A stretch of 64,000 nucleotides of DNA from Lachnospiraceae bacterium (GTDB lineage: Bacteria; Bacillota; Clostridia; Lachnospirales; Lachnospiraceae), in NCBI GenBank assembly GCA_021199655.1, contig JAJQHQ010000103.1, forward strand, positions 1 through 64,000. The letters run 5' to 3'. Position 1 is the first letter of the stretch. Each line of letters opens with the position of its first letter. This document shows, piece after piece, positions 15,443 to 63,086 of this stretch. The notes below the pieces were generated by a model. It was not told where the DNA came from. It did no database searches and was given only the letters and a program-made list of their open reading frames with translations. A program made the translations under genes and the position numbers.

Positions 15443-15469
15443 GTAACTGTTCAGTATCTTCACAGTTAC
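15443..15469 (-). repeat. Repeat core, reverse orientation
   Basis: GTAACTGT and ACAGTTAC arms with TCAGTATCTTC between them. It forms an outward-facing pair with the forward core at 15604, so 15443-15630 has GTAACTGTTCAG and GAACAGTTAC ends like the full elements. Confidence 0.85.
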
Positions 15470-15603
15470 GAAGAGGATTCTTCTTTGCTGTAAATACCAT
15501 GTCTGCATGTTTCTATGACATTACCAGAGAAAAAGCGGCGCTGATGCGCCGGAAGACAACAGGGCAACTGAATTCGGAGCAGGGGATTTCGATGGATTTT
15601 CCT

Positions 15604-15630
15604 GTAACTGTGAAGGTATGGAACAGTTAC
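15604..15630 (+). repeat. Repeat core upstream of tadV
   Basis: GTAACTGT-GAAGGTATGGA-ACAGTTAC, 55 nt before the tadV ATG in forward orientation. It is preceded by ATGGATTTTCC, which also precedes other forward cores. Confidence 0.9.
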
Positions 15631-15685
15631 GGAATTTGCAGAATTCCCGGAGAGGAGGCGCAAGGTTATTTACAGAGAAATTCAG

Positions 15686-16171
15686 ATGATTTCGCTTACC
15701 GGTATTGCGGTGACGGCCGCGCTCTGCGATCTTTGGGCAGAGCGCATCCCGAATGCGGTGATCGCGGTCGGACTGGCGATGGGGCTGGTGTATCAGCTGT
15801 TTGCGGAAGGACCGCTGGGACTGATCCTGTTTTTGGGCGGAGTCCTTTTGCCGCTGCTGCTGCTGGGCGGCCTGTATTATTTTCGTATGCTGGGCGCAGG
15901 AGACATCAAGCTGCTGTGTGTGGTCGGGGGCTTTTGGGGTCCGCTGGGCGTGCTTGCCTGTTTTGTCCGCTCAGTATTTGTTGCAGCTGCGGTATCCATT
16001 GTGATCCTGTACCGGCGTCATGAATTTGGAGAGAGGCTGCGCTATTTTTTGGAGTATGTCAATACGTATCTGGAAAGCGGCCAGTGGAAACCGTATCTGG
16101 ACGGCGTGAAGGAAAATGCAAGATTTTGCTTTTCCGTGCCGATACTGGTCGGGATCCTGCTTGGGCTGTGA
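15686..16171 (+). CDS. tadV: Prepilin peptidase (A24 family), TadV-like
   Basis: 161 residues, several hydrophobic helices, with an N-terminal conserved Asp (ALCDLWAERIPN) and GAGDIKLL (residues 71-78), the two aspartates of the A24 aspartic peptidases. It should cleave the Flp pre-pilin encoded at 21298. ATG 15686 has no good ribosome site. GGAGGCGCAAGG lies earlier and would suit a non-ATG start (ATT at 15668), adding residues in frame, so the start is uncertain. First gene of the Tad locus. Confidence 0.88.
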   Translation: MISLTGIAVTAALCDLWAERIPNAVIAVGLAMGLVYQLFAEGPLGLILFLGGVLLPLLLLGGLYYFRMLGAGDIKLLCVVGGFWGPLGVLACFVRSVFVAAAVSIVILYRRHEFGERLRYFLEYVNTYLESGQWKPYLDGVKENARFCFSVPILVGILLGL

Positions 16172-16192
16172 GGAGAATACCGGGAGGTTTTT

Positions 16193-17212
16193 ATGAAGAA
16201 AAGTATATTTGCGGTCTGCGACCTGGAAGCTTCGTACGCGTGTAATCTTACGGAGTATCTGAACGAAAGGAAAACGACACCGTTTGAGGTGCAGGCATTT
16301 ACCAATGTAGAGAGTCTGGAAAAATTTGCGAAGGAAAATGAGATTGAGATCCTGCTGATCTCGACGAGAGCGATGTGCAACGAGATACGGGATCTGCCCA
16401 TCAGCCGCACGATCATTCTCTCAGAGGGAGAACAGATCTCGGATCTGGGCTATCCGCTGATCTATAAGTATCAGTCGTCGGACGATATTCTGTCAGAAGT
16501 GATGGAGTATTATGTGCAGGATCATCCGCAGCCGCACATACTTTCGCTGGGAGCCAGAAAGACGAAGCTTTACGGCGTATATTCGCCGATCGGACGTACC
16601 AGGAAGACCTCATTTGCCCTTTGTCTGGGGGAAATTCTGGCGGAGTCAAAGAAGGTGCTCTATCTGAATTTTGAAGAATTTTCCGGATTTGAGGAGCTGT
16701 TTCAGGTCAATTACCGGATGGATATTTCTGACCTGATTTATTTTTCCCGGCAGAAAGAGGGCGGACTGGTATACAAGCTGAATTCGGTGATCCAGACATT
16801 TCATGATCTGGAATACATCCCTCCGGCACTTTCTCCGGCGGATATCCGTGATGTAACGGGGGAAGAGTGGATGGCGTTCCTGAAAGAGATCATGTCTTTT
16901 CGGGAGTACGACGTGATTATTCTGGATTTAAGCGAGCAGGTAGACGAGCTGTTTCGGCTTTTAAAAGAATGCGACCGGATCTATATGCCGGTGCAGGACG
17001 ACATGATCTCGCAGGCAAAGCTGAAACAGTATGAGCATCTTTTACACATGCTCGATCTGGAGAAGGTGCAGGAGAAGACCCTCCGTATTCATCCGCCGGT
17101 TCAGCCGCTGCTGCGCGACGGCGGCGGGATCACGCAGCAGCTGGTGTGGGGAGAGATGGGGAATTTTGTCCGGAAGCTTTTGTGGGAAGAGGAAGGCAGG
17201 ACGGATATGTGA
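16193..17212 (+). CDS. tadZ: TadZ/CpaE-like pilus assembly protein
   Basis: 339 residues. The first 110 look like a receiver-type domain lacking a clear phosphorylation motif. The remainder is a MinD/ParA-like fold with a degenerate P-loop (PIGRTRKTS near 128-137), in which the signature lysine and second glycine are replaced, and VIILDLSEQVDELFRLL near 240. TadZ proteins position the pilus machine at the cell pole or septum. The altered P-loop suggests weak or no ATP hydrolysis. It lies 21 nt after tadV and before tadA. Confidence 0.82.
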   Translation: MKKSIFAVCDLEASYACNLTEYLNERKTTPFEVQAFTNVESLEKFAKENEIEILLISTRAMCNEIRDLPISRTIILSEGEQISDLGYPLIYKYQSSDDILSEVMEYYVQDHPQPHILSLGARKTKLYGVYSPIGRTRKTSFALCLGEILAESKKVLYLNFEEFSGFEELFQVNYRMDISDLIYFSRQKEGGLVYKLNSVIQTFHDLEYIPPALSPADIRDVTGEEWMAFLKEIMSFREYDVIILDLSEQVDELFRLLKECDRIYMPVQDDMISQAKLKQYEHLLHMLDLEKVQEKTLRIHPPVQPLLRDGGGITQQLVWGEMGNFVRKLLWEEEGRTDM

Positions 17213-17220
17213 TGAACGCG

Positions 17221-17363
17221 GTTACTATTCACGGCGAGACTGACACTTGCTGTCAGGCTGCGCCAGAACACGTTTCGGATGTGTGATTTCGCCCCCATGC
17301 ATCGAAGATGCATTTAAAATGGGGCGAAATCGTTACATTCACAGCGTAGCTGTGAATAGTAAC
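17221..17363. repeat. Inverted-repeat-bounded element between tadZ and tadA
   Basis: Perfect 12-bp ends GTTACTATTCAC (17221-17232) and GTGAATAGTAAC (17352-17363) enclose internal hairpins (GACTGACACTTGCTGTCAGGC). Bases 17221-17286 recur almost exactly at 26703-26766. No coding capacity: MITE-like. Confidence 0.85.
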
Positions 17364-17394
17364 TGAGCGCGATTTTTAAATGGGTTTTTCCCTT

Positions 17395-17421
17395 GTAACT
17401 GTGAAGGAGCTGAACAGTTAC
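17395..17421 (+). repeat. Repeat core upstream of tadA
   Basis: GTAACTGT-GAAGGAGCTGA-ACAGTTAC, 30 nt before the tadA start, preceded by TTTTTAAATGGGTTTTTCCC as in other forward copies. Confidence 0.92.
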
Positions 17422-17451
17422 GAGAAGAAGCGGAGAGGAGAAAAATAAAAA

Positions 17452-18681
17452 ATGGATGAGAAACGATTCACTGCAATACGCAGGAAACTGATGGAGAATC
17501 TGGACGGCTGCGGAGAGCTTCAGGATGATGAGATTTATCAGAACATTGACGACCTGATCCTGGAATCGGGAATGGAGTATTATATCCGGCTTTCAGACAA
17601 AAACGTGCTCCGGCAGGAGCTGTTCAATTCCGTTCGCAGGCTGGATATTTTACAGGAGCTGATCGATGACAATTCCGTTACGGAGATCATGGTGAACGGG
17701 ATGGATGGAATCTATGTGGAGCGGGATGGAAGACTGAGCCGCTGGGATAAATGCTTTTACAAAAAAGAACGGCTGGAGGATATCGCGCAGCAGATCGTCG
17801 GCCGATGCAACCGCATCGTGAATGAATCCGTACCGATTGTCGATGCCAGGCTGGAGAATGGCGCCAGAGTGAATATTGTCATGCCTCCTGTGGCGCTCAA
17901 CGGTCCGGTGATCACGATCCGGCGCTTTCCGGATGAGCCGATCCGTATGGAACAGCTGATTCGCTGGGGAACCATCTCACAGGAAGCCGTGGACTTCCTC
18001 CGGCAGCTGGTGTGCGCCGGATATAATATTTTCATTTCGGGCGGTACCGGGTCCGGTAAGACGACATTTATGAATGCGCTGTCGAATTTTATCCCCAAGG
18101 ATGAGCGGATCATTACGATCGAAGACAATGCGGAGCTGCAGCTGCAGGGCGTACAGAATCTGGTAAGGATGGAAGCGCGCAGCGCGAATGCCGAAGGCGA
18201 AAAGGAGATCACGATCCGTGATCTGATCCGGTCAAGCCTGCGGATGAGGCCGGACCGGATACTGGTCGGCGAGGTAAGAGGCGGCGAGACGATCGATCTT
18301 CTGCAGGCGCTCAATACCGGGCATGACGGTTCGATCAGCACCGGTCATGCCAACAGCCCGCAGGATATGCTTTCCAGACTGGAGACGATGGTGCTGATGG
18401 GCATGGAACTTCCCTTAAGAGCCGTGCGCAGGCAGATCGCATCCGGAATCGATATTCTTGTGCATGTTGGCAGAATGCGGGACAAGACGAGAAAGGTGCT
18501 GCAGATTCTGGAAATTCTGGGCTACGACAGCGAAAAGGATGAGATCCTGACGCAGACGCTCTATGAGTTTGAGGAGGAGAAGGATAAGGAATGCGAAACC
18601 GTGATCGGAAAACTGCAGAAAAAGGGAGAACTGCAAAACCGGCAGAAGCTGGAGCGCGCGGGGGTACGCGCCGGGACATAA
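17452..18681 (+). CDS. tadA: Tad/Flp pilus assembly ATPase (CpaF family)
   Basis: 409 residues of a type II/IV secretion ATPase. It has an N-terminal helical domain, ITEIMVNGMDGIYVERDG-type segment, Walker A GGTGSGKT (197-204), an Asp box near IITIEDNAEL, MRPDRILVGEVRGGE and the His box STGHANSP. It powers assembly of the Flp pilus. GAGAGGAG precedes the ATG. The 239-nt gap to tadZ is filled by repeats, so transcription through it is assumed rather than shown. Confidence 0.95.
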   Translation: MDEKRFTAIRRKLMENLDGCGELQDDEIYQNIDDLILESGMEYYIRLSDKNVLRQELFNSVRRLDILQELIDDNSVTEIMVNGMDGIYVERDGRLSRWDKCFYKKERLEDIAQQIVGRCNRIVNESVPIVDARLENGARVNIVMPPVALNGPVITIRRFPDEPIRMEQLIRWGTISQEAVDFLRQLVCAGYNIFISGGTGSGKTTFMNALSNFIPKDERIITIEDNAELQLQGVQNLVRMEARSANAEGEKEITIRDLIRSSLRMRPDRILVGEVRGGETIDLLQALNTGHDGSISTGHANSPQDMLSRLETMVLMGMELPLRAVRRQIASGIDILVHVGRMRDKTRKVLQILEILGYDSEKDEILTQTLYEFEEEKDKECETVIGKLQKKGELQNRQKLERAGVRAGT

Positions 18682-18773
18682 GAAGGAAAGACTCCGGCGG
18701 GACCGGACGCCGGAATATGGCGCCGCGGGGGATGCCGGCCTATTGTGCCAGAGACCGCCCGGAGTCCGAGCGG

Positions 18774-19511
18774 ATGGACTACTCCGTCTACCGTTTTTCT
18801 ACAAAGGAATATCTGCAGTATCTGGGTTTATATGCTCTGCTGGACGGCTGCGTCAGCTATCTTTTTTTTCGCTCTCTGACCGCGTTCGTTCTGCTGCTGG
18901 CGGGTATGTTTCTGTTTTTCAGAGAGCAGAAGAAGAGACTTTTGGAAAAACGGAAAAAAGAAGTCACGCGGCAGTTTCTGGATGGAATCCAGCTGATGCT
19001 TGCCTCCCTGCAGGCGGGATATTCATCAGAAAATGCTCTGCGTGAAGCGAAAAAGGAGCTTTGCAAAATCTATTCTTCGAAAGCCCTGATCGTACGGGAA
19101 TTTGACTGGATGGATGCACAGATGGGAATGAGCCGGAATCTGGAAGAACTGATGCTGGATTTTGGAAGAAGATCCGGCATACCGGATATCGTGAGCTTTG
19201 CAGAAGTGTTTTTGACAGCGAAGCGTACAGGCGGGGACCTGATCGCGATCATTCAGAATACGGTGTCGTGCATCCGGCAAAAACAGGAGACCCTGCAGGA
19301 GATCGAGACCTGTCTGGCCGGCAAGGCAATGGAGCAGAATATTATGAGCGTGATCCCGATCCTGATCCTGGCCTACATCAGGCTCTCTTCTCCGGGATTT
19401 CTGGATGTGATGTATGAGACGGCGGTCGGAGCGGCGGTGATGGTCATCTGCTTTGTTGTATATTTGCTGGCATATCTCTGGGGACAGAGCATCGTGAGAA
19501 TTGAAGTGTAG
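18774..19511 (+). CDS. tadB: Tad inner-membrane platform protein TadB-like
   Basis: 245 residues from ATG 18774, chosen because GGAG lies 9 nt upstream and MDYSVYRFSTKEYL is a typical start in this family. In-frame ATGs at 18591 and 18717 would add Arg-rich sequence, the former overlapping tadA by 91 nt. There are two N-terminal membrane segments, a GspF/T2SSF domain (LQAGYSSENAL, AKRTGGDLIAIIQNT) and a C-terminal hydrophobic pair. It forms the membrane platform with TadC. Confidence 0.87.
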   Translation: MDYSVYRFSTKEYLQYLGLYALLDGCVSYLFFRSLTAFVLLLAGMFLFFREQKKRLLEKRKKEVTRQFLDGIQLMLASLQAGYSSENALREAKKELCKIYSSKALIVREFDWMDAQMGMSRNLEELMLDFGRRSGIPDIVSFAEVFLTAKRTGGDLIAIIQNTVSCIRQKQETLQEIETCLAGKAMEQNIMSVIPILILAYIRLSSPGFLDVMYETAVGAAVMVICFVVYLLAYLWGQSIVRIEV

Positions 19512-19536
19512 GGATATAGGGATAGCAGCGGCTGAC

Positions 19537-19672
19537 CGGCGGCAGAACGTGGAAGGAAAAGCAAAAAGCCGGCAAAGGCAGATTGTGGCGGGAAAAGCAA
19601 AGAACCGGCGGCAGAACGTGGAAGAAAAAGCAAATAGGCGGCAAAGGCAGAACGTGGCGGGAAAACGGCGGA
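19537..19672 (+). repeat. Degenerate 33-36 bp tandem repeat between tadB and tadC
   Basis: Four units alternate CGGCGGCAGAACGTGGAAG and CGGCAAAGGCAGAACGTGG forms, each followed by a GAAAAGCAAA-type tail. The array occupies almost the whole tadB-tadC gap and is open in the tadC frame, but the tadC start is best placed after it. Confidence 0.8.
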
Positions 19673-19713
19673 TCGGCTGGATTCGGGCGCGAAGACGGAA
19701 AAGGGAGAGACGG

Positions 19714-21150
19714 ATGAAAAAAGACAGAAAAGGCATGGAGCAGCTGGGTGAGTTTCTGGTAGAACAGCTTCGGCTGGATCAGCCGGGAAACGGGAAGCAG
19801 GAGCTGAAAGAAGAACTGACCGCGCTGGCGGTGGGATCCCGTTTTGCGGTGAAGGAATATTATGTCAGAAAGACGGTATTGCTCCTGATGGTTCTGGGTG
19901 CGGGGCTTGCACTGACGGTTGTCTGCTTTTTCACGTTTCGTGCAGGAGGAAGCACCGAACTGACTTCTGTGGCAAGACCAGGTTACGGGGAAGGAGACCG
20001 GACGGAATCCCTGACGGTTCAGGTGGAAAATGAAGACGAGGTACAGGAACTGAACGTCACGGTTCAGGAACGCAGATACACGGAGGAGGAGAAGCAGCAG
20101 ATCCTCAGCCTGGCACTGAAGGAGCTGGAGGAACTTCTTCCCGGCGAAAATGGGTCGCTGGATCATGTGCAGTCCCCTTTGGCGTTTACTGACAGTCTGC
20201 AGGACGGTGCGGTCAGTGTAAGCTGGACGACAGATCCCTACGGAGTGATCGGTGTGGACGGAAGCATTGAATCGGCGGAGTCGGAAGAAGGAACTCTGGT
20301 AGAAATTCAGGCGACGCTGAACTGTGATGGCCTGGAAGCGATATACAGTACTTTTGCAAATGTCTTCCCTCCTGACCGCACGGAAGAAGAACAGCTTCTG
20401 GATGCGATTTATGAGGAAGTGGCGCACGCGGACGATGAAAGCAGCTGCGAGAGTGAGCTTGTGCTGCCGACCTCGGCTGCAGGACAGAAGCTGACCTGGC
20501 TGAAGGAAGAGACCGCGAATCCATATCTTTCGGTACTGGCGATGACACTGATCCTTACGGTCTGCGTTTATCTGCAGATGGATAATCAGGTTCATACAAA
20601 AGCGGAGGAGCGGAAGAAACAGCTGCTGCTGGATTATCCGGATCTGATGTGGAAAATGACCATGCTGCTTGGCGCGGGAATGAGCATCCGGGGCGCTTTT
20701 GTAAGGATTTCGGAGGAGTATATAAGAAGCCGGGAGAGTGCAGTCCCGGCAGGACAGACAAAAGCGCCCGGCAGAGCCGGAACGGTAAAAGCGGCAGGGC
20801 AGCGCGGGAAAAAAGAGACGCAGCCAAGATATGTATATGAAGAGGTCGTGCGTACCTGCCTGGAGATGCAAAGCGGAGTCGGCGAGGCGCAGGCATATGA
20901 ACGATTTGGAAAGCGCTGTCAGCTGCCGGAATACATTCGGCTCGGATCTGTGCTTTCACAGAATCTGCGGAAGGGAGCGAAAGGACTTACCGCCCTGCTG
21001 GAGCAGGAAGCGGAATCGTCCCTGAATGAACGAAAGAATCACGCGAGAAAAATTGGAGAACAGGCAGGGACAAAGCTGCTTCTTCCGATGATCCTGATGC
21101 TGGGGATTGTCCTGACTGTCCTGATGGTGCCGGCATTTTTATCTTTTTGA
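19714..21150 (+). CDS. tadC: Tad platform protein TadC-like with large insertion
   Basis: 478 residues from ATG 19714, preceded by AAGGGAGAGA. One membrane segment is near residues 50-70 (LLLMVLGAGLALTVVCFF), followed by a roughly 225-residue hydrophilic, acidic, presumably extracytoplasmic region unusual for TadC. A second membrane segment (LSVLAMTLILTVCVYL), a cytoplasmic T2SSF-like part (DYPDLMWKMTMLLGAGMSIRGAF) and a C-terminal membrane helix follow. Position after tadB supports a platform role. Confidence 0.8.
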   Translation: MKKDRKGMEQLGEFLVEQLRLDQPGNGKQELKEELTALAVGSRFAVKEYYVRKTVLLLMVLGAGLALTVVCFFTFRAGGSTELTSVARPGYGEGDRTESLTVQVENEDEVQELNVTVQERRYTEEEKQQILSLALKELEELLPGENGSLDHVQSPLAFTDSLQDGAVSVSWTTDPYGVIGVDGSIESAESEEGTLVEIQATLNCDGLEAIYSTFANVFPPDRTEEEQLLDAIYEEVAHADDESSCESELVLPTSAAGQKLTWLKEETANPYLSVLAMTLILTVCVYLQMDNQVHTKAEERKKQLLLDYPDLMWKMTMLLGAGMSIRGAFVRISEEYIRSRESAVPAGQTKAPGRAGTVKAAGQRGKKETQPRYVYEEVVRTCLEMQSGVGEAQAYERFGKRCQLPEYIRLGSVLSQNLRKGAKGLTALLEQEAESSLNERKNHARKIGEQAGTKLLLPMILMLGIVLTVLMVPAFLSF

Positions 21151-21191: not shown

Positions 21192-21259
21192 GTAACTGTA
21201 AAGATATGGAACGGCTATGAACCTTTTCCTTCGTGACTGTGAAGGTAAGGAACAGTTAC
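21192..21259 (+). repeat. Tandem pair of repeat cores upstream of flp
   Basis: A degenerate core (21192-21218) is followed by a good one, GTGACTGT-GAAGGTAAGGA-ACAGTTAC (21233-21259), which ends 38 nt before the flp ATG. Both are in forward orientation. Confidence 0.85.
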
Positions 21260-27513: not shown

Positions 27514-27562
27514 GTAACGAATCAGGACAGTACCTTGCACCTACTGCGAGGTTCGTATAAAT
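27514..27562 (+). repeat. Degenerate left-module repeat
   Basis: GTAACGAATCAGGACAGTAC followed by a decayed CTTGCACCTACTGCGAGG hairpin. It begins 12 nt after the rhomboid stop. Confidence 0.75.
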
Positions 27563-27590
27563 CATATGAAAATATATAGCGTACGAAAAT

Positions 27591-28487: not shown

Positions 28488-28510
28488 TTGCTTCTTTCGT
28501 TCGGGATCTT

Positions 28511-28537
28511 GTAGCTGTAAAGGCACTGTACAGTTAC
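28511..28537 (+). repeat. Repeat core between kinase and HIT gene
   Basis: GTAGCTGT-AAAGGCACTGT-ACAGTTAC, forward orientation, upstream of the HIT gene and of the kinase start. Confidence 0.85.
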
Positions 28538-35445: not shown

Positions 35446-36144
35446 ATGAATAAAATCGGTATCATCGGAGCAATGGAAATTGAGGTAGAACGGCTGAAAG
35501 CGGATATGAAGCTCTCCCGGGAGGTCACGAAGGCACATATGGTCTTTTGCGAGGGAGAATTGTCCGGTATGCCGGCGGTCGTAGTGCGCAGCGGCATCGG
35601 AAAGGTGAACGCGGCTGTGTGTACGCAGATCCTGGTGGATGAGTTTGGTGTGGACTGCGTGATCAATACCGGTGTGGCTGGGTCTCTGGACGCGAGTATT
35701 GACATCGGGGACATTGTGATCTCGAAGGATGTTGTGCACCACGATATGGACGCGGTGAACTTTGGATATCCTCTGGGACAGATTCCGCAGATGGATGTGT
35801 TTTCCTTTGAGGCGGATCCGGCGCTGGCAGAGCTGGCGGAGCGGGTGTGCCGCAAAGTGAATCCGGAAATATCCGTGTTCCATGGACGTATCACCAGCGG
35901 CGACCAGTTTATTGCGGATAAGGAGACGAAGAACCATATCGTCTCGAATTTTGGAGGCAGCTGTACAGAGATGGAAGGCGCGGCCATCGCGCAGACTGCC
36001 TGGCTGAACGGCATACCGTTCCTGATCCTGCGCGCGATCTCGGATAAAGCAGATGACAGTGCTACAATGGACTACCCGACATTCGAGCGTGAGGCAGCGC
36101 AGCACTGTGTGCGGCTGGTCGAGGGTCTGTTGGAGGAATTGTAA
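35446..36144 (+). CDS. mtnN: 5'-methylthioadenosine/S-adenosylhomocysteine nucleosidase
   Basis: 232 residues, full family length. The IGIIGAMEIEVE start carries the catalytic Glu, followed by SGIGKVNAA, NTGVAGSLD, TSGDQFI, CTEMEGAAIAQ and RAISDKADD with the catalytic Asp. The enzyme removes adenine from MTA and SAH, recycling methionine-cycle products and, in luxS-type bacteria, feeding AI-2 synthesis. Its TAA stop lies within the first bases of a repeat element (GTAACTATTC). Confidence 0.96.
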   Translation: MNKIGIIGAMEIEVERLKADMKLSREVTKAHMVFCEGELSGMPAVVVRSGIGKVNAAVCTQILVDEFGVDCVINTGVAGSLDASIDIGDIVISKDVVHHDMDAVNFGYPLGQIPQMDVFSFEADPALAELAERVCRKVNPEISVFHGRITSGDQFIADKETKNHIVSNFGGSCTEMEGAAIAQTAWLNGIPFLILRAISDKADDSATMDYPTFEREAAQHCVRLVEGLLEEL

Positions 36145-36190
36145 CTATTCATGACAGTACGTACCTCGCACTTGTTGCGAGGTACATATT
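36141..36190 (+). repeat. Left repeat module at mtnN stop
   Basis: GTAACTATTCATGACAG followed by the perfect hairpin GTACCTCGCA (36161-36170)/TGCGAGGTAC (36176-36185). The mtnN stop codon is bases 36142-36144. Confidence 0.9.
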
Positions 36191-36293
36191 AAAGTAAGTC
36201 AGCAGCCTGATATTACGCAGAGGCGCGATAGAAAGCATATTGTTAAAGCAACCACGTCTCGTGCGGCGAGCAGGGGAAATCACCCTGGTCGAT

Positions 36294-37959: not shown

Positions 37960-38003
37960 GGTGACAGGGGAGCGGTTTGTGGCCCGGTCAGAGAGAAATT
38001 TTT

Positions 38004-38155
38004 TAACTATTCAGGACAGTGCCTCGCACTTGCTGCGAGGTACGTATGAAAACGTACAATTTACAGGAAAAAGTCCCATCGCGGCGCTAAGCGGCAGCGG
38101 AGACGCGATTTTAAATGGACTTTTTCCCGTAACTGTGAAGGAACTGAACAGTTAC
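38004..38155 (+). repeat. Full-length composite repeat upstream of pgi
   Basis: Left end TAACTATTCAGGACAG, hairpin 1 GTGCCTCGCA/TGCGAGGTAC, hairpin 2 GGAAAAAGTCC (38066-38076)/GGACTTTTTCC (38117-38127), then the core GTAACTGT-GAAGGAACTGA-ACAGTTAC (38129-38155). It has the same order as 47220-47351, with compensated differences in hairpin 2. Confidence 0.93.
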
Positions 38156-46529: not shown

Positions 46530-46556
46530 ATAACTGTTCAGTACCTTTACAGTTAC
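46530..46556 (-). repeat. Repeat core upstream of mecA
   Basis: ATAACTGT-TCAGTACCTTT-ACAGTTAC, in the usual orientation relative to the minus-strand mecA start. Confidence 0.9.
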
Positions 46557-46992: not shown

Positions 46993-47223
46993 TTGAATAC
47001 AAAGACAAACTCGAAGCCCTGCGGTAATCAGGCTCGGCTGCTGGAAAAAGAGCTGAGCGGCTATGAAAGAGCGGGGACCCATCTTTATCTGGACGGGCGG
47101 CGCTGCCATGCAGACGAGATTGTCAGTGCCTGCCTGCTTGCCGATGGGGCCGGCTATATGAGAGATATTATCGGCAATGATCAGGAAATGATCACCGACA
47201 TCAATTTTGTAAAAATCCGGTAA
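46993..47223 (+). CDS. Small conserved-looking protein
   Basis: 76 residues from TTG 46993, preceded by AAAAAGGAG. LYLDGRRCHADEIVSACLLADGAGYMRDII reads as a small soluble domain; no motif known to me. It is in line with the promoter at 46705. Its TAA stop lies in the first bases of the repeat element that follows, so the natural C-terminus may have been altered by insertion. Confidence 0.55.
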   Translation: MNTKTNSKPCGNQARLLEKELSGYERAGTHLYLDGRRCHADEIVSACLLADGAGYMRDIIGNDQEMITDINFVKIR

Positions 47224-47351
47224 CTATTCAGGACAGTACCTCGCACTCGCTGCGAGGTACGTATGAAAAGTAAATGTTGCAAGGGAAAATCCCATCGCGA
47301 AGCGATTTTAAATGGATTTTCCCTCGTAACTGTGAAGGCACTGAACAGTTA
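47220..47351 (+). repeat. Full-length composite repeat
   Basis: GTAACTATTCAGGACAG, hairpin 1 GTACCTCGCA (47236-47245)/TGCGAGGTAC (47251-47260), hairpin 2 GGGAAAATCC (47282-47291)/GGATTTTCCC (47313-47322), core GTAACTGT-GAAGGCACTGA-ACAGTTAC (47325-47351). The best complete copy in the window. Confidence 0.95.
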
Positions 47352-47541
47352 CAAAATCCGTTTATAAAAGGGAAGGAGGTGTGCAGCCGAACTGCCGTTT
47401 CCCCGGACCGGCTGCTTCAGTTCTTAATTTTTATCAAAAATTGGGTAAAGATACTGACGATTTTTGCAGAAGCTGATATACTGACGAAAACAGGAAGAAC
47501 TTTTCCTTTGCAATACAGAAGAAAAGGGGGAAGTACAGCAG

Positions 47542-49350: not shown

Positions 49351-50826
49351 ATGAGTGGCATGAAGAATATGACTTTGGCGCACATGGCGGAAGCCTGCGG
49401 CGGGACTTTATATGGAAAAGAAGAGGACCGGAATCGGGAGGTCTGCGCGATCACGACGGACAGCCGGAAAGCAGAGCCAGGCTGTCTGTTTGCGGCGATT
49501 CCGGGCGAACGCGTGGATGGGCATGATTTTATCGAGCAGGTATTTGAGATGGGAGCGCTGTGTGTGATCACGGAGCGGGAGCCGGAGAGTATTTCCGGCA
49601 CCCGAAATTACATAAAGGTGGACTCTACGATCCGGGCTCTCGGGGCGCTGGCGGCATACTATCTGGAACAGCTGGCGATCCCGGTGGTCGGCATTACCGG
49701 CAGTGTCGGCAAGACCAGCACGAAAGAGATGATCGCGGCGGTGCTCTCGCAGAAATATCGTACATTGAAGACCGCGGGCAATTTCAACAATGAGCTCGGA
49801 CTTCCGCTGACGATCTTCCGGCTGCGCGACGAGGATGAGATCGCTGTGCTGGAGATGGGGATCAATCATTTTGGCGAGATGCACCGGCTGGCTGCGATCG
49901 CGAAGCCGGACACCTGCGTCATTACGAATATCGGGCAGTGCCATCTGGAATTTCTGGGAGACCGGGACGGCGTCCTGCGGGCGAAAACGGAGATTTTCGA
50001 TTATCTGCGTCCGGACGCACACATCGTATTAAATGGGGATGACGATAAGCTGGAGACGGTGAGAGAAGTAAAAGGTATCCGCCCAATCTTTTTCGGACTT
50101 GGAACGGACAACGATATCTACGCAGACCAGATTGAGAAAAAAGGGCTGGATGGAATTGCGTGCCGAATCTGCATAAAGAAGAGTAAGAATCTGTCAGATG
50201 GTATGGAATTGGATGAAGATGCAGGAAAAGAAATTGTCCCTGGGACGGATGCAGATGCTGCCGGAGGATACGACAGTTTCACAGTACAAATTCCCATACC
50301 CGGTGAACACATGGTGAGAAATGCTCTTGCAGCTACGGCGGTCGGTCTGCACTATGGCCTGACGACAGAAGAGATTCGTGCCGGGATTGAGAGTCTGGAG
50401 TCAGTCAGCGGTCGTTTCCATATCGTCCATACGGATAATTTTACCATCATCGACGACTGTTATAATGCAAATCCGATGTCGATGAAAGCGTCTTTGGAGG
50501 TACTGCAGGATGGGCTTGGGCGCAGGGTCGCGATTCTCGGAGACATGGGAGAGCTTGGTGAGGATGAAGTACAGATGCACCGCAGTGTCGGTGAGTATGC
50601 AGGTGGTCTGAATCTTGATCTGTGTATCTGTGCGGGTCCTTTGAGTACGCATATTGCGGAAGGAATTCATGCTAACGTGGAGACGGTCATTTTGCCGGAC
50701 CTTTCAACCCTGCTCACACAGCTCCCTGCTCTGGTACGCAAGGGTGATACGATACTGGTGAAAGCATCGCATTTCATGCATTTTGAAAAAATAGTTACAC
50801 AGTTGGAAAACATGAAAGCTGTTTAA
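49351..50826 (+). CDS. murF: UDP-MurNAc-tripeptide-D-Ala-D-Ala ligase MurF
   Basis: 491 residues from ATG 49351 (GGAGGGAG upstream). The N-terminal UDP-binding domain has ITTDSRKAEPGCLFAAI, the ATP site GITGSVGKTSTKEM, then AGNFNNELGLPLTI, EMGINHFGEM and DDCYNANPMSM. The enzyme adds D-Ala-D-Ala to the UDP-muramyl tripeptide in the cytoplasm. A 30-residue acidic insert around 285-310 is somewhat unusual. The stop codon is at the edge of a repeat element. Confidence 0.95.
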   Translation: MSGMKNMTLAHMAEACGGTLYGKEEDRNREVCAITTDSRKAEPGCLFAAIPGERVDGHDFIEQVFEMGALCVITEREPESISGTRNYIKVDSTIRALGALAAYYLEQLAIPVVGITGSVGKTSTKEMIAAVLSQKYRTLKTAGNFNNELGLPLTIFRLRDEDEIAVLEMGINHFGEMHRLAAIAKPDTCVITNIGQCHLEFLGDRDGVLRAKTEIFDYLRPDAHIVLNGDDDKLETVREVKGIRPIFFGLGTDNDIYADQIEKKGLDGIACRICIKKSKNLSDGMELDEDAGKEIVPGTDADAAGGYDSFTVQIPIPGEHMVRNALAATAVGLHYGLTTEEIRAGIESLESVSGRFHIVHTDNFTIIDDCYNANPMSMKASLEVLQDGLGRRVAILGDMGELGEDEVQMHRSVGEYAGGLNLDLCICAGPLSTHIAEGIHANVETVILPDLSTLLTQLPALVRKGDTILVKASHFMHFEKIVTQLENMKAV

Positions 50827-50876
50827 TTATTCAGGACAGTACTTCGCACTTGCTGCGAAGTACGTATGAAAACGTG
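50823..50876 (+). repeat. Left repeat module between murF and LysR gene
   Basis: TTAATTATTCAGGACAG and hairpin 1 GTACTTCGCA (50839-50848)/TGCGAAGTAC (50854-50863). Compared with 47220 and 36141, both arms differ at one pair in a compensatory way (C-G to T-A). Confidence 0.92.
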
Positions 50877-50878
50877 CA

Positions 50879-51754
50879 TTATTCTTCCGCTTGCGAAACG
50901 ATATAATCATAAAACAGCTTTCCTGCCGAGGAGAGAGGTTTGTTATTCATAAAGAGCATATAGGTTTCGAAAGAAATCACAGGTAATATATCAACCATGT
51001 GGATGTTGCTGCTTTCTTCACAGCAGGCACGCGGAAATATCGCGGACGCATAGCCGCTTTCCACCAGACGCATGGCTGTCGGTGCATCCTGCGCACAGAG
51101 TTTGATGCGGGGCGTAAATCCTTCTTTGGCGCATTCATTGAAGAAAAGATCCTGCAGGTAAGCGCGGTTGGGAAGGATCAGAGGTTCTTCCGCAAGCATG
51201 CGCAGTGTGACCGCGGATTCCCGGCAAAGCGGGCTGTCTTTGGATACAATGAGAATCAGATCGTCCTGCCGGAATGGCTGATAACAGATTTCTTTTGACG
51301 ACCAGTTGATGCTGTTCGCAAAGACAAACTCTGCCTGCTTGTCAGCGAAAGCGGACTTCTGCGGCGGATCAGAAAGCTCTGTGAGGCGCAGATTGATCTG
51401 AGGATTTGCGTCTTTGAAAGCCATGATCGCATCCAGGACCCCGTACCAGTACATGGGGCTGGTGAAAGCGATGGACAGAGTGTTCGTGGATTTTGTGGCT
51501 TCCAGATTCATCAGCATGATCGCTTCATCATACAGCGGAAGGATCTTTTCACACTTTTCTTTCAGTATTTTGCCCATATCGGTCAGGGTAACTTTTCGTG
51601 TAGAACGTTCAAAGAGGGGGACGCCCAGTTCACCTTCCATCTTCTGGATATGCTTTGAAAGAGTGGAATTGGTAATGTACAATCTTTCACTCGCATCCTG
51701 ATAACTGCAGGTTTCGCTTAATTCCATAAATTCACGGAGAAATTCAATATCCAT
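50879..51754 (-). CDS. LysR family transcriptional regulator
   Basis: 291 residues from ATG 51754 (GGAAAGGAC upstream); longer upstream sequence would run through a repeat core. The N-terminal winged helix (FLREFMELSETCSYQDASERLYITNSTLSKHIQKMEGELG) is typical of LysR. The substrate domain has SPMYWYGVLDAI and DLILIVSKDSPL. The effector is unknown. It converges on murF and diverges from a long leader region before the ATP-grasp cluster. Confidence 0.92.
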   Translation of the reverse strand: MDIEFLREFMELSETCSYQDASERLYITNSTLSKHIQKMEGELGVPLFERSTRKVTLTDMGKILKEKCEKILPLYDEAIMLMNLEATKSTNTLSIAFTSPMYWYGVLDAIMAFKDANPQINLRLTELSDPPQKSAFADKQAEFVFANSINWSSKEICYQPFRQDDLILIVSKDSPLCRESAVTLRMLAEEPLILPNRAYLQDLFFNECAKEGFTPRIKLCAQDAPTAMRLVESGYASAIFPRACCEESSNIHMVDILPVISFETYMLFMNNKPLSSAGKLFYDYIVSQAEE

Positions 51755-51780: not shown

Positions 51781-51807
51781 GTAACTGTTTGGTACCTTCA
51801 CAGTTAC
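51781..51807 (-). repeat. Repeat core upstream of LysR gene
   Basis: GTAACTGT-TTGGTACCTTC-ACAGTTAC, 26 nt from the regulator's start, in the usual relative orientation. Confidence 0.92.
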
Positions 51808-52030
51808 GACGGAACATAAATGCTTCCATCCTGTGCACGGAAAAAGGATGATCGGGCAGCTCTTTGGGGCGCTTTTTATGCATTTTTTTTATTACACGGT
51901 CTTTATCATTAAATTAATATGATTGTAACACATTGAAATATTTCTGTCATTGAAAATTAAACAAAATATTGTTTCTATTTTGGAATTAATACACAAAATA
52001 TACAAAATGTGGTGAAATTGTAACAAACAG

Positions 52031-52265: not shown

Positions 52266-52317
52266 GTAACTATTCATAACAGATTTTGTGCATGCAAAGA
52301 AGGGACTGAACAGTTAC
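52266..52317 (+). repeat. Hybrid repeat core upstream of ATP-grasp gene
   Basis: It starts with the left-module end GTAACTATTCATAACAG and ends with the right-module end AAGGGACTGAACAGTTAC, 27 nt before the start codon. It looks like an internal deletion of a full element. Confidence 0.88.
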
Positions 52318-56459: not shown

Positions 56460-56472
56460 TTCAGGCAGGATT

Positions 56473-56498
56473 GTAACCGTGAAAATCGGAACAGTTAC
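56473..56498 (+). repeat. Repeat core between M14-type genes
   Basis: GTAACCGT-GAAAATCGGA-ACAGTTAC, 33 nt before the second gene, forward orientation. Confidence 0.8.
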
Positions 56499-58418: not shown

Positions 58419-58440
58419 CATAAACAGTTCCTTTTTTACG

Positions 58441-58587: not shown

Positions 58588-58597
58588 AGAAGTTTGT

Positions 58598-59623
58598 ATG
58601 TCGGAATGGAAGAAGCTGCTGAGTATCGCGGGGATTACACTGGCGGTGTATCTGCTGATGAAATATCTGCTGCCGTATGTCGTCCCCTTTTTGATCGCAT
58701 ATATCATGGTACGAATGCTGAATCCGGTGTCGGAAAAAATCTGCCGCCGGATTCTGTGGAAAAAAGAAGTAATCGTCTCTGTTCTTCTGACAATCCTGCT
58801 GGCAGTCTGTTTTTTCGTAATCTATCTGTTCTATGGGCTGGTGATGGAGCAGCTGCAGCGCGTTGCGCTGAATTTTGATTCTTATTATTCCTGTGTCTGC
58901 GGGTTTATCGACCGCTGCTGCCTGTTGGCAGAGGAGCGCTTTGGAGTTGAGGTAGAGTCGGTAAAAGAATTCATTTATTCCGGCATTGAATCTGCTACCG
59001 ATCAGATTAAAGTCTATATTGTTCCCGGTGTCGTAAATTATTCTGTAAAATATCTGAAAAAGCTGGCGAGCGCCGGCCTTTTTGTGCTGATGCTGTTTGT
59101 GTCGATCGTGCTTCTGATCAAAGATTATGATGAGATAAGGGAAAAACTGGGAACCTGGCAGCTTTATCGGCATTTTCATAACATCACGGAGCGGATGTGG
59201 AAGCAGGGCGGGATGTACATGAAGGCTCAGGCCATCATCATTGGTGTAGTGATCGTGTTGTGCACGGTGGGGTTGTGGCTGCTGGGGAATCCCTACTTTC
59301 TGCTGCTTGGCATTGGGATTGGCCTGATGGATGCATTGCCTTTTATTGGTACTGGTACCGTGCTGGTGCCGATGGCTGCCGTGTATCTTTTGCAAAAAAG
59401 ATTTCACCTTGCTCTGGGGCACATCGGACTGTTTTTGCTGACCTATATTGTGCGGGAATTCCTGGAGCCGCGTCTGATTGGGAAAAAGCTGGGCGTCTAC
59501 CCGATCGTGATGGTGATCGTCGTCTACGCGGGGATGTATCTGTTCGGGGCAGCAGGCGTCGTGTACGGCCCGGTCGCACTGCTGCTGGTCAGGGAAATAT
59601 GGGAAGAGGTATCTCAGCTGTGA
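58598..59623 (+). CDS. AI-2E family transporter
   Basis: 341 residues from ATG 58598 (GGAG upstream); an earlier in-frame start would run through the repeat. Around eight hydrophobic segments: an N-terminal pair with PYVVPFLIAYIMVRML, a long soluble loop, and the family hallmark LLGIGIGLMDALPFIGTGTVLVP plus LEPRLIGKKLG. Members export AI-2 or small molecules, or act as sodium/proton antiporters; the substrate here is unknown. Confidence 0.9.
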   Translation: MSEWKKLLSIAGITLAVYLLMKYLLPYVVPFLIAYIMVRMLNPVSEKICRRILWKKEVIVSVLLTILLAVCFFVIYLFYGLVMEQLQRVALNFDSYYSCVCGFIDRCCLLAEERFGVEVESVKEFIYSGIESATDQIKVYIVPGVVNYSVKYLKKLASAGLFVLMLFVSIVLLIKDYDEIREKLGTWQLYRHFHNITERMWKQGGMYMKAQAIIIGVVIVLCTVGLWLLGNPYFLLLGIGIGLMDALPFIGTGTVLVPMAAVYLLQKRFHLALGHIGLFLLTYIVREFLEPRLIGKKLGVYPIVMVIVVYAGMYLFGAAGVVYGPVALLLVREIWEEVSQL

Positions 59624-59662
59624 TGATGTTCCAGCCGGTTCTATATCCTGTAGGGATACTAT

Positions 59663-59689
59663 GTAACTGTTCAGTACTTTCACAGTTAT
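59663..59689 (-). repeat. Repeat core overlapping pilT 3' end
   Basis: GTAACTGT-TCAGTACTTTC-ACAGTTAT. It covers the pilT stop codon (59686-59688). Confidence 0.88.
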
Positions 59690-60747
59690 AATACTTTCTT
59701 CCTCATCATTTCAATATTTGTGCAGTACTGCAGCGCGGTTTCCGCGGTAATTTTCCCTGTCTTGTACAATTGAAGCAGGCTGTTGTCCATGGAGATCATG
59801 TCTTCCTTTGCGGAGGTGTAGATCACGCCCTCAATCTGGTGAATCTTATTATCGCGGATCATGTTGCTGATCGCGGGGGTCATGATCATGATCTCAAACG
59901 CGGGGATCAGGCTGCCGTCTTTGGCCGGTACCAGCTGCTGGGAGACGACGGCATGCAGCACCATGGAAAGCTGTATCGAGATCTGCCGCTGCTGCGACGG
60001 CTCGAATACATCGATGATACGGCTGATCGTGTTGGCAGCGCCGATCGTATGCAGGCTGGAGAGGACAAGATGTCCGGTCTCCGCTGCGGTCATGGCGGTC
60101 TGGATCGTCTCATAGTCGCGCATTTCGCCAAGCAGAATGACATCCGGACTCTGGCGCAGGGAAGCGCGCAGCGCGGTCAGATAATTGTTTGTATCCGTGG
60201 AAATCTCACGCTGGCTGACGATGCTTTTCTTGTGCCGGTGAAGGAATTCGATCGGATCCTCGAGCGTGATAATGTGATCCGCGCGGGAGGAATTGATACG
60301 GTCGACCAGACAGGCCAGGGTCGTGGATTTTCCGTTGCCGGCCGGGCCGGTAACGAGGATGAGTCCCTTTGTCGTATTGGAGAGGGAAAGTACAACGGGC
60401 GGAATACCAAGCGTCCCTGGATCCGGAAGATCAAAGGCGATCACACGGATGACCGCGGCAAGCGAACCGCGCTGTTTGTAGGTGCTGACGCGGAAACGGG
60501 AAAGCCCCGGTACAGCGAAGGAAAAGTCATCGTCGCCCACGGACAGAAAGTGGTCGATCGGACGGTTTCCTGCCATTTTGTAGATTTCCTGAATCAACTC
60601 TTCCGTATCTGAGGGCATCAGGCGGTCCCCGATATGCTGAAGAGTACCATTTACCTTATAGGTAGCAGGAAGCCCCGCGACAAAAAACACGTCCGAGGCA
60701 TCTGCCTCTACTGCTGATTTCAAAAATGATGTAATGTCAATGCTCAT
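59686..60747 (-). CDS. pilT: PilT-like twitching/secretion ATPase
   Basis: 353 residues from ATG 60747 (GGGGGA upstream). N-terminal ADASDVFFVAGLPATYKVNG, Walker A GPAGNGKSTT, the Asp box IITLEDPIEF, SLRQSPDVILLGEMRD and the His box HLVLSSLHT are those of PilT-type retraction ATPases. It would drive retraction of type IV pili. The last codons coincide with a repeat core. Final gene of a minus-strand pilus operon. Confidence 0.93.
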   Translation of the reverse strand: MSIDITSFLKSAVEADASDVFFVAGLPATYKVNGTLQHIGDRLMPSDTEELIQEIYKMAGNRPIDHFLSVGDDDFSFAVPGLSRFRVSTYKQRGSLAAVIRVIAFDLPDPGTLGIPPVVLSLSNTTKGLILVTGPAGNGKSTTLACLVDRINSSRADHIITLEDPIEFLHRHKKSIVSQREISTDTNNYLTALRASLRQSPDVILLGEMRDYETIQTAMTAAETGHLVLSSLHTIGAANTISRIIDVFEPSQQRQISIQLSMVLHAVVSQQLVPAKDGSLIPAFEIMIMTPAISNMIRDNKIHQIEGVIYTSAKEDMISMDNSLLQLYKTGKITAETALQYCTNIEMMRKKVL

Positions 60748-60760
60748 GGAAAAATCCCCC

Positions 60761-61384
60761 TTAGTCGGCAGAACCGGTCCGATACAGATTCTGACTGGTA
60801 TCGGCGGACCATTCCGCGGTGGAGACGATCTGCCAGCCGGTAATCTGATAAAACGTGTCGGAATCGGATTCCGGCCAGAGGACGGAAAGCTCAACATGAA
60901 GAAGCTGATCCTCCGTCACGGAAACGTCGTATTGGAAAGTGCCAATAATGGAAACTGTCTGGCTTTCGGCGCCTGCATCATTTATAGCGATACTTTCAGA
61001 GGTATCTGAGTTGGCATTGCTGCCGGAAACATTGGCCGTCCAGATGAGAGGCGTATTTGCAATCGAGAGTGTGCCGCAGGCGTCCGCGTAGGCAGTCATG
61101 GCAGCGGCTGTGCTGTCATCCGCGCCGTCGGCGTCCTCGCTGTCAGGTTCCGCCTGTGCCTCCTGCAGAGCCTCACGCCAGGCAGCGGCGAGCTGCGTGT
61201 CGATCTCATTTAATATCTCATTGGCTTCCGTGACAGCCGCATAATATTCGGTGGTCCTTTCTGCTGAATTCTGCGCGAGCTTCGCGTCGGCGGTCGCGCC
61301 GGAAAGCGAGAGCAGCGAGAAAGTGATCAGGCAGAGGGAGAGGAAGATCAAAAGCATCAAAGAGATGCCGGCAGTCTTTTTCAT
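60761..61384 (-). CDS. Pilus-associated membrane protein, minor pilin-like
   Basis: 207 residues. The N-terminal helix GISLMLLIFLSLCLITFSLLSLSGA resembles PilX-type or pseudopilin anchors, with a helical stem and a Ser/Asp-rich domain containing two-part beta sequence at the C-terminus. Its start overlaps the stop of the upstream gene by 4 nt. Role inferred from the operon only. Confidence 0.72.
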   Translation of the reverse strand: MKKTAGISLMLLIFLSLCLITFSLLSLSGATADAKLAQNSAERTTEYYAAVTEANEILNEIDTQLAAAWREALQEAQAEPDSEDADGADDSTAAAMTAYADACGTLSIANTPLIWTANVSGSNANSDTSESIAINDAGAESQTVSIIGTFQYDVSVTEDQLLHVELSVLWPESDSDTFYQITGWQIVSTAEWSADTSQNLYRTGSAD

Positions 61385-61908
61385 GAAAGCGCCTCCTCTC
61401 TTGTCAGGGCCAGATGATAAGTCACCGTGAGCTCATAGAGCGTTTCTCCGGAAGCGTCCGTAAAGGTCATGGCGGCAGTCTGCATATGGTCCGCGGTGTC
61501 CAGAAGCAGCGTAAGAGTATAGCTTACGGAATCGCTGTCGGCGGAACAGGCGGAAAAATCGCTGTTCCAGGTCATCTGATATCGCTGTAACTGCCCATCG
61601 GAAGCACCCGCAGCTCCGTCTGCATCCGCTGTCACGGCGGTATTGTCTGACCCGTCCGCAGCGGTACCTGTATCTGCAAGCAGGATTATCTCCGGAAAAT
61701 AGTCTTCAATCTTTTCACCGGCCGAAAGCACTTCCGCGATGGAAGCAGCCTCAGCCTGTGCGTGCGCGAGCGCGTCCGCGTCGCGTGTGACCTTATGGGC
61801 GGCGACAAATACACGCAGACAGACCGTGCCGATGATCAGAAAGAAAAACAGCACGATCAGGAATTCTATAAAAAATGTGCGGGACTTTCCCGCGGCCTGT
61901 TTTCTCAA
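61381..61908 (-). CDS. Pseudopilin-like membrane protein
   Basis: 175 residues. A single N-terminal helix (FFIEFLIVLFFFLIIGTVCLRVF) and a helical stem rich in Ala are followed by a small beta domain (YQMTWNSDFSACSADSDSVSYTLTLLLDT). It fits a minor pilin by size and position. Coupled with the following gene by a 4-nt overlap. Confidence 0.72.
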   Translation of the reverse strand: MRKQAAGKSRTFFIEFLIVLFFFLIIGTVCLRVFVAAHKVTRDADALAHAQAEAASIAEVLSAGEKIEDYFPEIILLADTGTAADGSDNTAVTADADGAAGASDGQLQRYQMTWNSDFSACSADSDSVSYTLTLLLDTADHMQTAAMTFTDASGETLYELTVTYHLALTREEALS

Positions 61909-61959
61909 GCGCGTATCGCACCTCCTTTGCGGTCTGGTATCCCAACGAGTCTGTGTCTT

Positions 61960-62044
61960 TCACTGTGAAGGTACTGAACAGCTGTAACTATCCAGGACAG
62001 TACCTCCTGTCTGCTGCGGGATCTGTGTAAGCAGGAACAGCTAC
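61960..62044 (+). repeat. Degenerate composite repeat in pilus operon
   Basis: CACTGTGAAGGTACTGAACAG is followed by a left module GTAACTATCCAGGACAGTAC and a decayed hairpin. Its last bases overlap the end of the DUF4860-like gene. Confidence 0.8.
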
Positions 62045-62508
62045 AGGTTGATCAGCATGGACATTTCTTCGCCGTCCGGACTGACGGCGGTCACACGAAG
62101 CAGAGCGCCGTCCCATTCCATAGTGAAATCGGAGAGCTCGACCAGCGCGGTTCCCATTGCCGCCTCGGGAATGGTTTCAGACCGTACAAACAGTTCACAC
62201 AGAGAGCCGTCATAAAAATAAATATAGGTACAGGTGGCCGTTTCCGCGTCCTCGTCGGAGGAAAGCTTAAGCGCCGGGATCTCTTCCACTGAAGAGAGGG
62301 AGATCAGACCCTCCGAATTGGATTGCCGTACTTTTTCTGCGACGTAGGAGATGGCGGTACGGGAGGTATAATTCTCATTCAGGCTTTCGATACTGTTGCG
62401 GTAGACGAGAGCGCCGGTTCCGGCCAGCACCAGCGCAAACATGGCAAACGTGATCAGAAGCAGGAAAGAGAACAGAAAATCCGTATTGTGCTGTTTTCTG
62501 CGGTACAT
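62041..62508 (-). CDS. DUF4860-like pilus protein
   Basis: 155 residues from ATG 62508 (AAGGAGAAAG upstream); longer sequence would enter a repeat. The N-terminal helix FLFSFLLLITFAMFALVLAGTGA is followed by YRNSIESLNENYTSRTAISYVAEKVRQ, typical of DUF4860/pseudopilin-like proteins of Firmicutes type IV pilus loci. Probably a minor subunit of the apparatus. Confidence 0.78.
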   Translation of the reverse strand: MYRRKQHNTDFLFSFLLLITFAMFALVLAGTGALVYRNSIESLNENYTSRTAISYVAEKVRQSNSEGLISLSSVEEIPALKLSSDEDAETATCTYIYFYDGSLCELFVRSETIPEAAMGTALVELSDFTMEWDGALLRVTAVSPDGEEMSMLINL

Positions 62509-62525
62509 ATGGTCTTTCTCCTTTC

Positions 62526-62705
62526 GTAACTGTTCGATACTCTGCAGCAAGTGCGAAGTACCGTCCTGAATAGCTGCTCAGTATCTTCACAGTTACGGAA
62601 AAAGTTCATTTAAAATCACGTCTCCGCTGCCGCTTCGGTCGGCGTTAAGCGAACGTCCACTGGACGTTCAGCGCCGCGATAGAACTTTTTCCTGTAAAAT
62701 ATATG
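62526..62705 (-). repeat. Longest composite repeat, reversed
   Basis: Read on the minus strand: GGAAAAAGTTC (62597-62607 region) pairs with GAACTTTTTCC (62682-62692), with an inserted GTCCA-TGGAC palindrome and a GAAGCGGCAGCGGAGACG stretch between. A core with a nested left module follows at 62526-62596. It lies 17 nt from the DUF4860-like start. Confidence 0.9.
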
Positions 62706-62708
62706 GTT

Positions 62709-63038
62709 TCAGGACAGCGGTATCACCGTGATGGTGGGCATCAGATTCGCTCCCAGTATCTCATAATCCACGACATATTTGTTCGCGTCCCAGCTGATTC
62801 CATAATGTTCACATAAGTAGTCCAGACTTTCGGGCCAGGCGCCCTCGGTCGCATAACATTGCACCGCACTGCGCGTAAGGGCTGTCTGCAGGCTTTCTGC
62901 CTGTTCGGTACTTGCACTTTCACTGATCGTGCCCGCGCCGTAGAGCAGAAGGAAAGCCGCACAGCAGAAGATTGCGGCTGTACTTACGATCTGGCGCAGC
63001 AGGGAGTGCCTTTTTTTTTCCCGGGCAAATCGGTTCAT
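62709..63038 (-). CDS. Small pilus-locus membrane protein
   Basis: 109 residues from ATG 63038 (GGAGGGTGA upstream). An N-terminal basic segment and helix (IVSTAAIFCCAAFLLLYGAG), then a short ectodomain with one Cys pair (QCYATEGAWPESLDYLCEHYGISWD), a layout common in small pilin-like proteins of Firmicutes. Function inferred from the operon. Confidence 0.74.
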   Translation of the reverse strand: MNRFAREKKRHSLLRQIVSTAAIFCCAAFLLLYGAGTISESASTEQAESLQTALTRSAVQCYATEGAWPESLDYLCEHYGISWDANKYVVDYEILGANLMPTITVIPLS

Positions 63039-63059
63039 AAAGATCACCCTCCGTTTCTC

Positions 63060-63086
63060 GTAACTGTTCAGTATCTTCACAGTTAC
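63060..63086 (-). repeat. Repeat core in pilus operon
   Basis: GTAACTGT-TCAGTATCTTC-ACAGTTAC, 21 nt from the start of the next gene, in the usual relative orientation. Confidence 0.93.

Follow-up and report, generated by a model that had tools for sequence, protein, structure and literature searches.

The stretch of DNA analysed here (the window: positions 1 to 64,000, in nucleotides, of contig JAJQHQ010000103.1 of a Lachnospiraceae bacterium) contains about 17 copies and fragments of a family of palindromic elements, termed F1, and a single copy belonging to another family, F2, in line with an original prediction of a palindromic repeat family with about 20 copies between 15 and 63 kb. F1 is very probably a gene-less miniature inverted-repeat transposable element (MITE) moved by an IS66-type transposase, encoded by a single open reading frame (ORF), that recognises its ends. 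A profile of 75 full copies (36 from the same genome, copy 47220 included, and 39 from relatives; 125–140 bp, at most five changes per end module, longer and more decayed copies being left out) gave 19 matches with E<0.005 at 16 places in the window, to which a weaker match at 52266–52317 (E=0.1) may be added. The end motif GTAACTGTGAAG (at most two mismatches) occurs 31 times in the window and the end motif CTGAACAGTTAC 40 times, versus 3.0 expected in each case.

F1 measures about 133 bp (typically 133–136 bp, under the 600-bp limit for MITEs), contains no gene and has a consensus (75 copies) with a mean column identity of 87%. It begins with GTAACTATTCAGGAC and is bounded by GTAACT[A/G]TTCAG ends (terminal inverted repeats GTAACTATTCAG/GTAACTGTTCAG). 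More specifically, the left hairpin H1 (GTAC[C/T]TCGCA-CTTGC-TGCGA[G/A]GTAC) is followed by a spacer, by a long hairpin, M, with a 3-nt loop, which comprises a short inner hairpin and seven unpaired bases (TTTAAAT) on its 3' side, and by the right module R27, a 27-bp inverted repeat (GTAACTGTGAAGGTACTGAACAGTTAC). With at most one mismatch, the end motif GTAACTRTTCAGKAC is found 337 times in the 3.98-Mb own genome (110 contigs), versus none for the reversed pattern; the 133-bp query has at least 41 matches in this genome (40 of 351 candidates scored), and the profile detects 69 copies or fragments in 734 kb of joined stretches and none in the reversed sequence. Note that three contigs of the assembly (C13, C37 and C47; loci L123–L125) have their first base within an F1 copy, some 55 bases away from the end of the element, which probably reflects assembly breaks at near-identical copies. 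F2 has the same layout, with GTTACTATTCAC ends; its best copy, on the contig to which the window belongs (C34:70050–70191), is flanked by the target-site duplication (TSD) CAATAAAC.

Transposition has left clear marks around F1. Among the 23 full copies present in the 734 kb, an 8-bp TSD is perfect for 14, matches at 7/8 positions for six and at 6/8 for two, the remaining copy being flanked by a perfect 9-bp duplication. In all the sequence gathered, a match at 7/8 positions or better is seen for 45 of 65 full copies, compared with 1.08 (maximum 4) for shuffled flanks, and for 22 of 162 27-bp units (0.3 for shuffled flanks, maximum 3). The duplicated targets resemble GAAWWWTT, with a G at position 1 in 29/45 and an A at position 2 in 33/45. 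The site of copy 47220 is uninterrupted in three sister species (G062, G013 and G012), and the element at 38003–38155 is absent from the aligned site in G013. Elsewhere, an empty-site test on 150 elements with a duplication of at least 7/8 returned seven result rows, that is, six distinct sites, three of which display a single target copy at the junction: C36:25398 (full copy, with a 15-base indel close by), C18:69250 (full copy, alignment identity 77%) and C18:13459 (27-bp copy). The other three candidates (L209 twice, L211) align poorly at the junction. Copies can also be shared: the orthologous elements G000:C36:19746–19879 and L204:1541–1674 are identical over 134 bp, with flanks that differ by about 5%. 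At L199:2572–2852, two F1 elements lie in tandem, separated and bordered by one and the same 8-bp repeat (GAGTCGGT), an arrangement corresponding to the duplication of an element together with its target repeat. A non-autonomous mobile element had been proposed from the window alone, which is supported by TSDs far in excess of shuffled flanks, by empty sites in sister species and, as described below, by transposase elements with matching ends. Covariation and presence/absence variation, the joint lack of which had been named as counter-evidence, were both observed.

The elements of the window are collected in Table 1. The copies at 47220, which is canonical, and 38003–38155 had rightly been called full, although the latter starts with TTAACTATTCAG rather than GTAAC; the third presumed full copy, at 62526, turned out to consist of two fused minus-strand pieces. 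A possible degenerate 26-bp unit at 56473–56498 on the plus strand (GTAACCGTGAAA...CGGAACAGTTAC) was left out of the copy count.

Table 1. F1 and F2 copies and fragments in the window (positions of the window)
Feature	Coordinates	Strand	Evidence and remarks
27-bp F1 unit	15443..15469	-	end-motif and profile matches
F1 right part (end of middle hairpin and 27-bp unit)	15580..15630	+	profile
F2 copy, 143 bp	17221..17363	+	ends GTTACTATTCAC; flanks TGAACGCG/TGAGCGCG, 7/8
F1 right half, adjoining the F2 copy	17369..17421	+	profile
Diverged 27-bp F1 unit	21224..21259	+	another degenerate unit at 21192
F1 left part	27514..27584	+	profile
Diverged 27-bp F1 unit	28508..28537	+	profile
F1 left end and first hairpin	36141..36194	+	stem variant check, profile
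Full F1 copy, 153 bp, longer middle-hairpin loop	38003..38155	+	flanks match 6/8
27-bp F1 form	46530..46556	-	perfect TSD GTATCACC; weak profile match reaches 46660
Full F1 copy, 133 bp, canonical	47220..47352	+	TSD AAAATCCG at 47212-47219 and 47353-47360
F1 left part, cut in the middle hairpin; stem variant GTACTTCGCA/TGCGAAGTAC	50823..50902	+	profile
27-bp F1 unit	51781..51814	-	profile
52-bp F1 form with left and right ends, probably an internal deletion	52266..52317	+	profile E=0.1 only
27-bp F1 unit	59663..59689	-	also 27 bp long in G062, same site
F1 right-unit and left-end fragments, fused	61959..62037	+	profile
Compound: F1 middle and right module, then left module	62526..62711	-	profile
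27-bp F1 unit	63060..63086	-	absent from the aligned G062, G013 and G012 sites

A relative in the genus (G014) carries a 2267-bp element with GTTACTATTCAC ends, as in F2, the TSD ACTATTTT and a gene for a 530-aa IS66-family transposase of the TnpC type. This protein matches Pfam DDE_Tnp_IS66 (E=2e-10) and the NCBIfam IS66 model (E=9.4e-41, under that model's curated cut-off), and the columns containing its residues D286, D339 and E468, which would form the DDE triad, are invariant in an alignment of six proteins. Upstream of the transposase, a 109-aa ORF (L077:2954–3283, minus strand) has no Pfam match (102 aa submitted); its start resembles the N-terminus of IS1634-type transposases. A search with the 530-aa protein gave matches in three of 47 genus genomes: G014 (intact), G063 (partial) and the own genome, where the sole PF03050 match lies in a 141-aa frame, a remnant beside a GTTACTATTCAC (F2-type) end. 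A profile of six TnpC proteins matches 29 of 397 family genomes. An end-like motif accompanies 26 of the 30 corresponding loci (at most one mismatch, a loose criterion with an estimated chance of about 0.45 per locus), and three of the elements (L277, L282 and L288) possess both GTTACTATTCAC-type ends and a perfect 8-bp TSD; related IS66 elements with a TSD span 1984–2394 bp. F1-type ends occur next to IS66 genes as well: GTAACTATTCAG lies at both ends of L138, from another genus, and at one end each near the IS66 genes of L285, L290 and L292, and the variant ends GTATCTGTTCAG and GTAACTGTTCAG stand at both sides of the IS66 gene of L286. ISDge4, a member of the ISBst12 group of IS66 that has been seen to transpose, has GTGACTACTCAGCA/GTAACTGCTCAGCA ends and an 8-bp direct repeat, according to PMC12898284. 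From the ends and the 8-bp TSD that F1 shares with the TnpC elements and ISDge4, the type of its putative partner is clear, namely a single-ORF (ISBst12-group-like) IS66 transposase. Other IS66 elements of the genus (about 2.7–2.8 kb) were rejected as partners: they have GTAA ends and, in L080, L084 and L087 out of nine scanned stretches, perfect 8-bp TSDs, yet their end sequences are different. Likewise, GTAAGGATTCAG and GTAAGGGTTCAG near L054/L070 were discarded as ends, being located within a long transposase frame and not terminal.

Several observations weigh against this assignment. L138, with its exact F1 ends, lacks a TSD, and 20 of the 65 full F1 copies have no duplication at 7/8. In the 47 genus genomes (30 of 40 PF03050 matches scanned), F1 ends were not seen on any IS66 element; the transposase elements of G014, G063 and the own-genome remnant have F2-type ends only. 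Among the 397 family genomes, MITE matches (49) and TnpC matches (29) coincide in four, versus about 3.6 expected; therefore, there is no association of the MITE with the enzyme across the family. Finally, none of the 22607 pairs of ends with a spacing above 240 bp, taken from the own contigs and the fetched loci, delimits a convincing autonomous F1-ended element, the one perfect-TSD pair, at 3389 bp, having poor ends and being about what chance would give. The partner of F1 has probably been lost from the own genome. Taken together, a single-ORF IS66-type transposase would recognise the GTAACT[A/G]TTCAG ends and insert F1 at GAAWWWTT-like targets with duplication of 8 bp, as the ends, the duplications and the empty sites indicate; the copies persist mainly between genes. 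Deletion between GTAACT direct repeats may subsequently join the left end to the start of the right module, yielding the 27-bp forms, while the source elements would keep their stems paired through selection on the fold or through templated hairpin correction.

Regarding the short forms, perfect TSDs in the 734 kb delimit, among others, units of 27, 44, 49, 52, 70, 78, 133–136, 142–143, 187 and 237 bp (142 bp corresponding to F2); perfect-TSD pairs 21 and 3389 bp apart, with poor ends, were put down to chance. The short units that have a perfect TSD average 3.2 changes (n=10), versus 0.45 for the right modules of full copies (n=29; p=5e-5), and therefore look older. None of the loci compared has both a full and a 27-bp form at one site. 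The short forms resemble internal deletions between GTAACT repeats that have since aged: the original prediction of internal deletions is not proven but fits better, given that these forms have retained 8-bp duplications, appear older and carry a GTAACT direct repeat at each of the two points of deletion. That the 27-bp unit is itself mobile, the larger element being a composite that captured it, strikes us as improbable. The excess of duplications around these units, the empty orthologous site of one of them and the occurrence of an identical unit in two other genera (L254 and L255), with a third (L256) one base off, speak in its favour, but the perfect-TSD short units are the older-looking ones, intermediate sizes (44 to 78 bp) also have TSDs, and a deletion between the GTAACT direct repeats would give precisely the 27-bp product. 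It is far less conceivable still that F1, short, palindromic, intergenic and abundant as it is, belongs with repetitive extragenic palindromic (REP) or other palindromic repeats spread without a target-duplicating transposase. REP elements, which are linked to RAYT and bear GTAG/CGTC-type tags, are likewise short, palindromic and intergenic; they are not known to have TSDs, whereas F1 has 8-bp TSDs and precise empty sites.

The hairpins of F1 covary. In 70 distinct copies, 99.5% of the stem cells pair and 9 of the 23 stem pairs have changed on both sides, which amounts to 115 such cells, versus 34.4 in shuffled alignments and 0–16 after sliding of the partner; the tally of further pair types stands out less, with 38 of 500 shuffles reaching it. 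Parsimony yields 15 switches (tree from all columns) or 28 (tree from unpaired columns), so most double-changed cells are inherited. The outer stem, the left and middle hairpins and the seven unpaired 3'-side bases recur, with different stem sequences, in F2 and in two other genera (G617 and G446); in a third (G757), the middle hairpin and the outer stem are the same but the left hairpin differs. The matched stem variants noticed at the outset in the window (GTACCTCGCA/TGCGAGGTAC and GTACTTCGCA/TGCGAAGTAC), as well as three variants of the middle hairpin, are all present. The covariation is real, but the claim that paired changes imply selection goes too far: most matched variants recur in numerous copies, which means that source elements passed them on, and templated hairpin correction can produce matched changes without selection. 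Template switching within a hairpin is an established source of such changes, and the near-absence of intermediates for the H1 C-G/T-A switch (columns 21–37; 1/127) fits with templated correction.

Whether the fold also matters at the RNA level was considered from the placement of the copies. With mechanically called ORFs of at least 80 aa, 57 of the 69 F1 copies lie between ORFs, whereas 89% of random positions fall inside them. Intergenic copies between co-directional genes are oriented like the genes in 74 of 101 cases (26/35 in the own genome, 48/66 in relatives), counts from which only identical-context copies were removed, so that orthologous copies, if any, remain. The target motif alone predicts 58% on the same strand (excess: p=0.0017), and the orientation bias (73%) results in part from target preference. 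At dominant pairs, stem cells read on the gene strand comprise 48 G-U versus 21 A-C combinations (106 versus 98 at unpaired control sites), although the pair sites concerned are 15 and 16, respectively, and one of them supplies 12 of the 48 G-U cells. The strand bias and the G-U excess are hints toward an effect at the RNA level, short of showing one. Together with the two-sided stem changes and the recurrence of the fold with other stems, they leave a possible, though unlikely, place for F1 being also a structured RNA or single-stranded DNA, whose three-hairpin fold would be selected after insertion (for instance as an mRNA stability or translation mark), transposition merely spreading it. 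Besides the near-equal numbers of G-U and A-C pair sites, the rare H1 intermediates, as expected of templated correction, and the less striking tally of further pair types, this reading is opposed by the many F1 copies that are cut-down remnants, by the lack of any Rfam match at the element at gathering score and by the lack of a promoter or terminator pattern in 47100–47450, around copy 47220. The only Rfam match in the window is a GA-cis RNA (RF02987, 58.6 bits; 6857–6936, plus strand), located within a 587-aa plus-strand ORF (6186–7949), which is an odd location for a cis-regulatory RNA. A bolder proposal, which we hold to be rather doubtful, is that a MITE dispersed through much of one family (probably Lachnospiraceae) by an IS66-type transposase has a conserved three-hairpin cargo, with seven unpaired and mostly A/U bases, that would be selected as RNA when co-transcribed with genes; if true, a mobile element would hand out a structured RNA module, hundreds per genome.

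F1 was detected in 14 of 60 genomes, the own genome included: 13 of 35 same-genus relatives and none of 24 genomes from other families of the order. The 27-bp pattern is present in 18 of 47 genus genomes. Matches to the window copy extend to 49 of 397 family genomes and 44 of 334 genera, many of the listed ones consisting of the middle and right modules only; the four cross-genus loci that were fetched contain F1-like elements with perfect 8-bp TSDs, and another genus harbours a 139-bp F2-like element (L255:197–335) whose ends are of the GTTACTGTTCAC type and whose duplication matches at 7/8. The exact 27-base left end occurs at no fewer than 80 loci, all the listed ones in Lachnospiraceae or Clostridiales metagenome-assembled genomes, with no match in viral contigs and none in plasmids; unannotated faecal phage records gave three matches, each over 50% of the query.

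No description of the F1 family was recognised in the open-access literature, the matches being judged largely by title and beginning of abstract. The little-studied single-ORF IS66 group thereby gains a family of MITEs whose end motifs number in the hundreds in one genome and which has matches in 44/334 sampled genera of one bacterial family, and the combination of multi-species alignments, compensatory changes, empty sites and strand bias makes the upkeep of hairpins in bacterial MITEs testable, be it by transposition, RNA function or DNA template switching. F1 resembles the ISBst12 group (ISDge4, PMC12898284) in having ends close to GTAACT[A/G]TTCAG and an 8-bp duplication; that group has a single transposase ORF, whereas F1 has no gene and the related L077 element has a second small ORF. 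Gene-less copies bearing the ends of a parent are also known from MITECca01, with IS982 as parent (PMC9769881), and MITEPsy1, with ISPsy2 as probable parent (PMC3189936); the IS families differ from that of F1, the MITEPsy1 duplication is of 4 nt instead of 8 bp (PMC3189936), and the available portions of both accounts mention no fold conserved across genera, unlike what is seen for F1 (PMC9769881, PMC3189936). The pneumococcal BOX elements, too, are high-copy modular MITE-like repeats with terminal inverted repeats, TSDs and predicted RNA hairpins (PMC3049150). BOX elements are over-represented between convergent genes (PMC3049150), as is F1: in the sampled stretches of the own genome, 16 of its 57 intergenic copies lie there, versus 13% of random intergenic positions, and the excess is weaker in relatives (16/101). 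BOX differs in its host and in the transposase proposed for it, ISSpn2 (PMC3049150). In conclusion, F1 belongs to a known kind of element and is new in its details: a high-copy MITE family of the single-ORF IS66 group, orphaned, whose modular fold is conserved to an unusual degree.

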